A stretch of DNA of 52,913 bases from a virus, in IMG/VR virus record IMGVR_UViG_3300044729_002905, positions 1 to 52,913 of that record; one strand, given 5' to 3'. Both the position numbers and the translations under genes were made by a program. Position 1 is the stretch's first letter; the number at the start of each line of letters is the position of its first letter. The notes below the pieces were generated by a model. The model made no database searches. It was not told where the DNA came from and worked only from the letters and a program-made list of their open reading frames with translations. Below, one piece after another: positions 18,531 to 46,774 of this stretch.

Positions 18531-18560
18531 AAAACTAAAAAACCCCTGATTACTCAGGGG
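18531..18560 (-). terminator. Rho-independent terminator, minus strand
   Basis: CCCCTGA (18543-18549) and TCAGGGG (18554-18560) form a 7-bp stem with loop TTAC. On the minus strand the stem is followed by a run of six T and further T-rich sequence. It lies 20 nt after the stop of the HhH gene 18581-19012 and should end the transcript from the capsid genes, leaving the downstream late genes to read-through or another promoter. Confidence 0.8.
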
Positions 18561-19875: not shown

Positions 19876-21030
19876 TCAGACGGTACCGTCGTCAGAGACA
19901 AAGCTGTAAGCAGTCGTGATGAAGTCTTTGTTCAGCACTTCAAAACCAGCGTACAGTTGCCAAATCAAGATGATGAAACGGCTGAAGTCATCGTTGTTAT
20001 TGATGAGCACCTGAGCGTTCGGACCACCGATACCAACACCAACGGCCTGAGGACCGAAGAAGAAGCCCTGAGCAACGTCTTGGTTGGAGTAGGAGGCGGG
20101 AGTAGCAAAGCTAGCCGAGATTTGCTTGTTGGGGAAGTTGGTCGATTCGAAGAACTTCACACCTTCAAACTGAACACCAGTCGGCATCACAGGCTCACCG
20201 GCCAGGAAATAACCCTGACCAGCTTGGGGACCCATGTAGAAGCTGGCGTTGTTAGGCATCATGGGGTTACCCATGTACATGCCTTGACCAGGATTACCGG
20301 AGTAACGAGCGATCTCACGGAAGTCGGGGTCACGACGCAGGTGCATCATGAACACGGGATCGCAAATGCAGCGATACAGACCGTCAGCGAAGGTAGGAAC
20401 GTTGCGCTTACGCAGGTCCTTAACAACATTCAGCAGGTCAGTGCGAACCGAGAATTGCTGCAGGTCAGCAGTGTACTCAGTAGCAGTGTAGGTAACTTGA
20501 CCAGAAGAGTTCTTGGTCTTACCACCAGGGAAGTAGTAACCACCTTGGGTGCTAGAAGCGGCACCATTGGCTTCTGCTTTGGACAGTTCGTCAATGAAGA
20601 CGCGGTCACGCCAACGACGATAGTCATCCAGCAGGGTGAGGCTACCGATCGACTGGTGGAACATGTTGAGATTACCGGTGTCCAGCAGAAGGCGCTGAGC
20701 GGTAATCAGGGTTTCGCGAGCAATCTTAAAGGTCGAAGGCTGGGTCGGATCGCCAGGATCAGCAGGACCGGTGTATTCGTTAAGCACCACCAGGACTTTT
20801 TCCTTGGTGATGTTACGGCTGTTAGCGGTACCGATCGTTTGGTCAGCCACGCGAGCACGGCTGTCCTTGGTCCCAGGGTTGCCCCAGAACTTATAGCGAT
20901 CAAGTTGAACGGTTTGACCGGGTTGGCGAGTAAAGTCGTGGACAACCACGGGCTCTACAGCCATCTCACAGATATAAGCAGGATGGGGACGATAAAGCTC
21001 CGCACCCAGAATCTTAGGGAAGTCGTTCTC
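19876..21030 (-). CDS. Major capsid protein, main exon (HK97-type fold inferred)
   Basis: 384 codons are open from 21030 to the stop at 19876. An ATG at 20964 (MAVEPVVVHDFTRQPGQTVQ) could start a shorter protein, but the 22 codons upstream (ENDFPKILGAELYRPHPAYI, then CE) have the same codon use and read as capsid sequence. They are preceded at once by group I intron core sequence, so the true N-terminus is supplied by an upstream exon (see 21854-21862). The rest shows capsid-like features: TGNLNMFHQSIGSLTLLDDY, YTADLQQFSVRTDLLNVV and GLYRCICDPVFMMHLRRDPD. Codon bias is strong. It lies between scaffold-like and accessory genes. Confidence 0.82.
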   Translation of the reverse strand, partial: ENDFPKILGAELYRPHPAYICEMAVEPVVVHDFTRQPGQTVQLDRYKFWGNPGTKDSRARVADQTIGTANSRNITKEKVLVVLNEYTGPADPGDPTQPSTFKIARETLITAQRLLLDTGNLNMFHQSIGSLTLLDDYRRWRDRVFIDELSKAEANGAASSTQGGYYFPGGKTKNSSGQVTYTATEYTADLQQFSVRTDLLNVVKDLRKRNVPTFADGLYRCICDPVFMMHLRRDPDFREIARYSGNPGQGMYMGNPMMPNNASFYMGPQAGQGYFLAGEPVMPTGVQFEGVKFFESTNFPNKQISASFATPASYSNQDVAQGFFFGPQAVGVGIGGPNAQVLINNNDDFSRFIILIWQLYAGFEVLNKDFITTAYSFVSDDGTV

Positions 21031-21853
21031 CTGGTCTCTAGTTTCTTAGAGGGGTGGACTATCTCTTCATCCCTGTGGGATGCCGGACGCTAAATCTGGT
21101 ATTACGTAACAAGAGCGTGTTACCCCCAGTAGTCTCTGCGCCTTCCAATCACGCTTGATTGGCTTGGCTCAGGATTACCCTCGTCTTTACGTTAGGGCTT
21201 CCCTGAATTCATCCGGTTTGCACTCACCAATTGCTCGATGAGGTGACAACGTTGAGCGTTCAGTTGAGGTATAGTAAGCCTGGAAACCTGTTCATAAACA
21301 ACATGGAACCAAAACTTGTACCTGGATTTGGTAATCTTTACTTAACTAAAGATGGAGAGGCTTTTGAAAAACGTCTTGATCCTGATAATCAAGAATATTT
21401 TAAAAGGGTTCCCATCAGTTCAACCAGTTCTTATGATCGTATTTCAGTTCTTGTTAATGGAAAAAGAAAACGTTTTCATCTTCATGTTTTGATGGCAGTG
21501 GCTTTTTTAGGATTAGATCTTCGTTCTCATGGAACAAATAACTTTTCCCTTCAAGTAGACCACATTGACAACAACAAAAGAAACAATAAGATTGAAAATC
21601 TTGAAGTTGTTACCAAACAAGAAAATTTAACAAGAGCCTGGAAAACGGGTTGTTACAAGAACAATGGTTTTGCCAGTAAAGGAAAGCCGAAGAATTCTTT
21701 GAGAAAGTTTTCTTCAGACGATGTGGCCAGAATTAAAACTTTAAAAGAAGCGGGACTTTCTTATAGAAAGATTGCTGAAAAGTTTAACTGTGGCCATGTA
21801 GCTATTTACCAAATCATTAAAGGTAATACCTACCAGGATCTGAACTAGCTATC
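21031..21853 (-). ncRNA. Group I intron in the major capsid gene (boundaries approximate)
   Basis: On the minus strand from ~21236 to 21031 the conserved elements appear in order: P (AATTCAGGGAAGCCCT), Q (AATCCTGAGCCAAGCC), R (GCGCAGAGACTACT) and S (GAAGAGATAGTCC), then a P9-like hairpin CTCTA/TAGAG and a terminal G before exon sequence. A P2-like stem TCACC/GGTGA lies at ~21223-21245. Q and R are close to the IC3 introns of cyanobacterial tRNA-Leu(UAA) as I remember them. The 5' splice site is inferred from the ribosome-binding site beyond the HNH gene. I could not find a convincing internal guide sequence, so the 5' boundary is uncertain. Confidence 0.8.
21303..21848 (+). CDS. HNH homing endonuclease inside the intron, antisense to it
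   Basis: A 181-residue protein from ATG 21303 (MEPKLVPGFGNLYLTKDGEA), a start typical of HNH_3/NUMOD4 nucleases. An in-frame TTG at 21231 would extend it into intron core sequence. The catalytic region is FSLQVDHIDNNKRNNKIENL, then EVVTKQEN. The C-terminus has an HTH (KEAGLSYRKIAEKFNCGHVA). The expected job is cleavage of intronless capsid alleles to spread the intron. It is AT-richer than the capsid gene. Antisense orientation is unusual: its mRNA cannot come from the capsid transcript, so it needs its own promoter. Confidence 0.85.
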   Translation: MEPKLVPGFGNLYLTKDGEAFEKRLDPDNQEYFKRVPISSTSSYDRISVLVNGKRKRFHLHVLMAVAFLGLDLRSHGTNNFSLQVDHIDNNKRNNKIENLEVVTKQENLTRAWKTGCYKNNGFASKGKPKNSLRKFSSDDVARIKTLKEAGLSYRKIAEKFNCGHVAIYQIIKGNTYQDLN

Positions 21854-21862
21854 AAGAAACAC
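21854..21862 (-). other. Candidate first exon of the major capsid gene (GTG TTT CTT)
   Basis: Reading the minus strand, a strong ribosome-binding site (GGAGGA) ends nine bases upstream of GTG TTT CTT, after which the frame closes within three codons. Joined to exon 2 at 21030 it would give V/M-F-L-E-N-D-F-P-K in frame, with a U before and a G after the intron as group I introns require. Extending the exon one codon (GAT) also satisfies frame and the U rule. Confidence 0.5.
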
Positions 21863-21953
21863 GTTTATTTATCCTCCAAAGGTAGGACTTTTTATCAGGT
21901 GAAAGATTCGGTCTTTGACCTCATCTAAAAAAAGTATAGCAGTTGATAATTTA

Positions 21954-46481: not shown

Positions 46482-46703
46482 ATGATTAACTACACAGACG
46501 AACAACTACTTGCCATGGCCATGGCAAACATTGGCACTTACATTCATGACAACTCACCTCAGTACATCTTGATTGAAGACCCACGTAACGAAGATGATTA
46601 CGATACGTGGGATTACGGCTGTGAACCATTACCTCATGACCACACTTGGCAACACACATCAATTGATGTGAGTGTAAGCCCAAGTGATGGGGATGTGGCG
46701 TAA
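46482..46703 (+). CDS. Acidic early protein whose stop lies in the tRNA gene (73 aa)
   Basis: MINYTDEQLLAMAMANIGTY begins an Asp/His/Tyr-rich protein (RNEDDYDTWDYGCEPLPHDH). The last five codons and TAA (46701-46703) overlap the 5' acceptor and D-stem side of the tRNA by 15 bases. No family recognised. tRNA processing would therefore cut this message within its last codons. Confidence 0.55.
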   Translation: MINYTDEQLLAMAMANIGTYIHDNSPQYILIEDPRNEDDYDTWDYGCEPLPHDHTWQHTSIDVSVSPSDGDVA

Positions 46704-46774
46704 TCGGTAGCCGCTGCGCACTTAAAATGCGTTGACCATTGGTCGTGTCGGTTCAAGTCCGACCATCCCTACCA
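46689..46774 (+). tRNA. tRNA-Leu (anticodon UAA)
   Basis: An 86-nt class II tRNA. Acceptor GGGGATG/CATCCCT (one terminal G-U), anticodon stem GCGCA/TGCGT with loop CTTAAAA giving anticodon TAA, long variable arm GACC/GGTC, T arm GTCGG-TTCAAGT-CCGAC, discriminator A and an encoded CCA at 46772-46774. There is no intron. It should be functional and would help read UUA codons, frequent in the AT-rich genes. Confidence 0.95.

Follow-up and report, generated by a model that had tools for sequence, protein, structure and literature searches.

The locus examined here raises the question of where the major capsid gene of this virus begins. In the window (the whole 52,913-nt stretch of DNA that was analysed), an ATG at 20964 on the minus strand (MAVEP) opens a 362-aa open reading frame (ORF), the frame upstream of this codon is open to 21043 with a stop just beyond, and an HNH endonuclease gene lies on the opposite strand. 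We favor, with a probability of roughly 0.92, the reading that this freshwater cyanobacterial virus carries a major capsid gene split after codon 4 by a group I intron with an antisense homing gene. The virus is an S-EIV1-like cyanophage; the protein encoded by the downstream exon matches the PHROG 1357 major head protein (E = 1.5e-19), and the capsid of Synechococcus phage S-EIV1, the sole isolate found to be related in 50,697 phage records, is 88% identical. No phage protein is made in larger amounts than the capsid, and a ribozyme in its fourth codon must therefore splice very well.

The intron spans 823 nt of the minus strand (21028..21850), as delimited by Rfam and by alignment with its relatives; it begins with AGCUAG (AGCUAA in most of a sister family) and ends with CCAGGAG, including the terminal G. 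The intron alignment took in 15 sequences. The ribozyme core (21035..21303, minus strand) is a full-length match to RF00028 at 89.0 bits (gathering score, 50; E = 1.7e-21), which bears out an earlier sequence-only reading of a minus-strand group I intron within the major capsid gene. The same Rfam search of the whole window found no intron besides 21303-21035 on the minus strand.

Comparison of the window with intronless relatives fixes both splice sites exactly. These relatives read GTG TTT/C C/A TT GAT|AAC GAC or close variants following GGAGGAT, and the empty site has the sequence GTGTTTCTTGATAACGAC. Exon 1 of the window is thus the four codons GTG TTT CTT GAT (MFLD; 21851..21862, minus strand), with U-1 as its last base, and exon 2, assigned from the PHROG match and the S-EIV1 homologue, begins with AAC at 21027 (19876..21027, minus strand). 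A U precedes the intron and a G terminates it, in agreement with group I chemistry. The spliced product is 387 aa long with the N terminus MFLDNDFPKILG..., and nearly all capsid homologues encode MF[LI]D[NT]DFPK at this position. The strong ribosome-binding site that had been noted ahead of GTG TTT CTT is present as GGAGG at 21873..21877 (minus strand), and is found in the intronless relatives as well. Capsid coding does continue above the apparent ATG as had been proposed, however the GAG at 21030-21028 is the end of the intron, including its terminal G, and is not coding. Likewise, the tiny first exon holds up but comprises four codons rather than three, GAT being included; both splice sites had been placed one codon too early, giving MFL-ENDFPK in place of the correct MFLD-NDFPK. 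On unspliced mRNA, ribosomes would reach an in-frame UAG at codon 6 (GTG TTT CTT GAT AGC TAG; 21845..21847, minus strand), and the same bases hold the stop codon of the nuclease gene on the opposite strand. Ahead of the capsid leader lies a putative extended -10-like promoter element, TGCTATACT (21933..21941, minus strand), for which no -35 was matched and which is absent from the list of the consensus promoter scan; S-EIV1 carries TGCTAAAAT in its place.

The internal guide sequence (21244..21251, minus strand) sits 600 nt from the 5′ splice site, past the nuclease gene, and consists of CGUU (P10) and GUCA (P1). The guide CGUU.GUCA can pair with UGAU|AACG of the two exons in eight contiguous pairs, with a U.G wobble at the junction (U-1.G21247). 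The combination of exon UGAU and guide GUCA is found in 64 distinct introns, and that of CGAU and GUCG in the 10 of the sister family, a covariation at position -4 that tracks one split between two clades. Immediately before the guide, CUGAAC (21258..21263, minus strand) is complementary to GUUCAG near the intron 5′ end (21840..21845, minus strand), forming a P1 extension whose arms are about 570 nt apart. This extension is fully paired in 73 of 74 introns, with 5/6 pairs in the remaining one, and occurs in five compensated variants (GUUCAG:CUGAAC, ACUCAG:CUGAGU, GCUCAG:CUGAGC, AUUCAG:CUGAAU and GCUUAG:CUAAGC). A second P1-extension stem, with AGGUAU on the left (21826..21831, minus strand) and AUACCU on the right (21272-21267), is likewise compensated, its variants including AGGUG:CGCCU, AGGCA:UGCCU and AAACA:UGUUU. 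Since the 5′ end of the intron pairs with CUGAAC across the HNH gene, this gene is placed in the P1 loop. The 5′ splice site, previously regarded as the weakest part of the model, ranks among the strongest once the guide is found beyond the HNH gene. Two other arrangements were considered and rejected. A candidate guide lying near the 5′ splice site at intron nt 5-11 (AGUUCAG) yields a bulged P1 and no sister-family covariation at -4, and this region is the left arm of the P1 extension; a location of the HNH gene in the P2 loop was dropped, with P2 (CUCAUCG:UGGUGAG) and the P1 guide both located downstream of the gene.

Within the core, P3, P6a, P7.1, P7.2 and P8 are 99.5-100% paired, with some pairs changed on both sides, and P9 is CUCUA:UAGAG with variants across the family; P7 is invariant and thus uninformative for compensatory change. 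Introns of subgroup IC3, the class to which the core elements had been thought closest, lack a P7.1/P7.2 insertion. Such an insertion is present at 21096..21129 (minus strand), with P7.1 formed by CUGG:CCAG and P7.2 by GUAACA:UGUUAC followed by GUA, which by this criterion speaks against IC3 and for an IA-type core. Paired cells amount to 100% in P7.1 and 99.8% in P7.2, with both-side changes at 3/4 and 5/6 pairs, respectively. The location of P7.1 and P7.2 between P7 and P3 together with the GUA link is the mark by which the intron of cyanophage Pf-WMP3 was assigned to IA2 (PMC3428280), and by this pairing criterion the intron described here is of subgroup IA, IA2-like.

Evidence that bears on splicing comes from two contigs of about 2.5 kb (L004 and L006, from samples 3300012722 and 3300012723) in which the exons are joined exactly at GAT|AAC and which match the exon-1 flank of the window at 61/61 nt up to the junction. 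The exact flank is carried by 10 contigs (nine found plus the window), with the intron present in eight and absent from L004 and L006; all eight intron-bearing contigs (seven in the collection and the window, with the 823-nt intron) are longer than these two. Together with four more contigs (L002, L036, L039 and L042), L004 and L006 form a group of 2.46-2.69 kb whose ends fall -31 to +16 nt from the gene-3 stop, just before CCCCTGAGTAATCAGGGGTTTTTT (18537..18560, minus strand), the predicted intrinsic terminator of the capsid transcription unit. The other contigs end at varied positions between -281 and +3,577 relative to the gene-3 stop, one of them at -57. Judging from these ends, the six short contigs look like cDNA, in which case L002, which begins inside the intron, would be unspliced RNA. 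It is possible, although we consider it rather doubtful, that L004 and L006 are true intronless DNA alleles instead of spliced mRNA, as intronless alleles are common in the family and none of the papers searched lists these samples. Both contigs are also mosaic, switching strain about 0.8-1 kb into exon 2, and are for this reason chimeras or recombinants. Against the allele reading, their 5′ flank is elsewhere always accompanied by the intron (8/8), and their 3′ ends, like those of the other four short contigs, lie no more than 31 nt from the gene-3 stop and before the terminator. Splicing of the intron in vivo is thus indirectly supported by the joined exons of L004 and L006. Contigs of the viral collection that end at the terminator may offer RNA evidence on further phage genes.

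The antisense gene encodes a putative HNH homing endonuclease of 181 aa (21303..21848, plus strand) with matches to Pfam HNH_3 (E = 4.7e-10), to PHROG HNH (E = 1.5e-26) and to PDB 1u3e (E = 1.5e-4). It runs opposite to the capsid gene, as the sequence-only reading had recognized; its ATG lies at 21303, and its stop codon ends at 21848, 2 nt into the intron from the 5′ splice site. Of the 69 ORF-bearing introns, 68 have an intact HNH ORF that begins with ATG and has the same end point; in the one exception (L200), a different start codon may be in use. The DH and NN residues of the protein are invariant in the family, and a median dN/dS of 0.10 over 1,677 pairs indicates that the gene is under purifying selection. 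The activity of the nuclease, its target, its promoter and the timing of its expression are what we infer rather than observe. A promoter and terminator scan around the intron returned two plus-strand promoter-like sites against 2.4 expected, both within the HNH gene, and no promoter for this gene above chance. With promoter-like sites no more frequent than chance, the earlier suggestion that the nuclease is expressed early and the intron spliced late is conjecture. Directly before the HNH start is an imperfect dyad (21292-21302, plus strand; GTTTATAAAC in relatives), a candidate operator or hairpin; a function as an operator, by analogy with I-TevI autorepression, was set aside because the symmetry is incomplete in the window as well as in several relatives.

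The introns make up a large family that is common in the environment and occurs widely among relatives of cyanophage S-EIV1. Of the nearest 80 capsid genes of the viral collection, 20 contain the intron and the other 60 have no interruption, and 62 distinct introns, all with both ends known, share the identical insertion point. At the same site are ORF-less copies of 268-281 nt and copies of 229 nt with a minimal P1 loop (L168 and L248); those ORF-less or minimal copies that were tested score 89-101 bits, above the Rfam threshold. The ORF-less copies examined retain the bases encoding the nuclease C terminus (CCTGGTA), and hence look like deletions. On a tree of 131 capsid genes, built without the first 90 nt and from sampling enriched for intron carriers, at least 27 changes in intron presence or absence are needed, 17 of them forced by well-supported branches, a count that capsid recombination could inflate. 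Such presence/absence polymorphism at one exact site is a mark of a mobile intron, and the natural ORF-less and empty-site versions lend this family to comparative study of how introns are gained and lost. The capsid gene of S-EIV1 is itself uninterrupted. In its record (L082, KJ410740.1 60868-62007), the capsid is annotated only as the last 471 bp (AHV82228), and the rest of the gene is overlain by an opposite-strand hypothetical gene annotation. Unless the intron is taken into account, marker-gene surveys based on the capsid and annotations of S-EIV1-like phages will miss or truncate the gene.

We propose that a mobile IA2-like group I intron was inserted between capsid codons 4 and 5 (GAT|AAC). 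Once transcribed with the capsid gene, the intron would fold so that its 5′ end pairs, across the nuclease gene, with the bases immediately preceding the guide. This would carry the four-codon exon to CGUU.GUCA, and the ribozyme would then ligate GTG TTT CTT GAT to AAC GAC..., restoring the normal capsid protein. The HNH nuclease produced from the opposite strand would cut or nick the intronless site, and repair would copy the intron in. The antisense position of the nuclease poses the question of how it and the capsid RNA avoid each other. One conceivable, if improbable, answer is that a nuclease transcript running through the guide and P1 blocks capsid splicing, making expression of the two mutually exclusive, with the capsid start in addition being a hot spot for independent introns; if true, the opposite-strand nuclease transcript would be an antisense switch built into the intron. 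We give slightly less credence still to the idea that the intron splices while its HNH ORF no longer serves homing and spread has occurred by capsid-gene recombination alone. The antisense position of the ORF, its lack of a visible promoter and the persistence of ORF-less copies are compatible with this idea, however the near-universal integrity of the ORFs (68/69), their dN/dS of about 0.10 and the frequent changes in intron occupancy argue against it. That the capsid simply starts at ATG 20964, downstream of an intergenic region in which an independent nuclease gene adjoins a ribozyme in decay, accords with the 362-aa ORF opened by this codon but is refuted by comparison with relatives, which keep the upstream codons and begin with GTG or ATG at the conserved N terminus, not at MAVEP. 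The core, moreover, hardly varies, in contrast to the silent-site drift of the nuclease gene, and every core helix tested is maintained by compensatory change.

The split capsid gene with its antisense nuclease is not a new kind of element, as both a capsid-gene intron in mycobacteriophage LittleE and antisense nucleases in Didymium are already known. LittleE contains an 820-bp group I-like intron in its major capsid gene, with splicing demonstrated by RT-PCR and protein sequencing, and also has a homing-nuclease ORF on the bottom strand (PMC3706429). That nuclease was described as LAGLIDADG-like and the intron subgroup was left open (PMC3706429), whereas the cyanophage nuclease is an HNH protein of the I-HmuI type encoded in the P1 loop, in an intron family that counts 62 or more distinct copies. 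The intron in the DNA polymerase gene of Pf-WMP3, which encodes I-PfoP3I, shares with the present one a cyanophage host genome, the IA2 type, P7.1/P7.2 and an HNH nuclease, but interrupts a different gene and has an ORF that begins in P6a and spans P7 (PMC3428280), in contrast to the antisense ORF in the P1 loop here. The Didymium nucleases I-DirII and I-DsqI are, as here, encoded antisense to both the ribozyme and the host gene, and they are expressed in vivo (PMC9548176, PMC3073962); they are, however, His-Cys nucleases of IE introns in eukaryotic nuclear rDNA. I-HmuI of Bacillus phage SPO1 (PDB 1u3e) has the same HNH homing nuclease fold, but is encoded in a polymerase-gene intron and is only distantly related in sequence. 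What sets the cyanophage introns apart is how large and widely spread their family is, an exon of four codons, an HNH gene lying in the P1 loop and the stop of that gene 2 nt from the splice site.

Further group I introns were identified in related viruses. A marine S-EIV1-like contig (L182, 3637-5845) contains six group I introns above the Rfam threshold in one capsid gene within 2.2 kb, and the seven exons together match the capsid of the window; to our knowledge, the highest intron count otherwise among phage genes is that of Twort orf142, which has three. In contigs L191, L214 and L168, group I introns interrupt the capsid gene elsewhere (after ELYR, near QLDR), with at most three matches per gene region. 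Three of the 27 marine relatives scanned (L285, L303 and L283) carry an ORF-less intron of a different type at or near the same codons, positioned at MWID|NDF and, in L283, two codons later. The start of the capsid gene thus seems to be an intron hot spot. Related group I introns are also present in L189 and L202 in a different gene, which putatively resembles the capsid gene of T7-like cyanophages. A crude motif scan for nuclease ORFs near introns with the core pattern returned two sense cases only, and orientations are not comparable by this means. Elsewhere in the window, 46689-46771 holds a tRNA gene (Rfam, 53.8 bits) with the apparent anticodon UAA.
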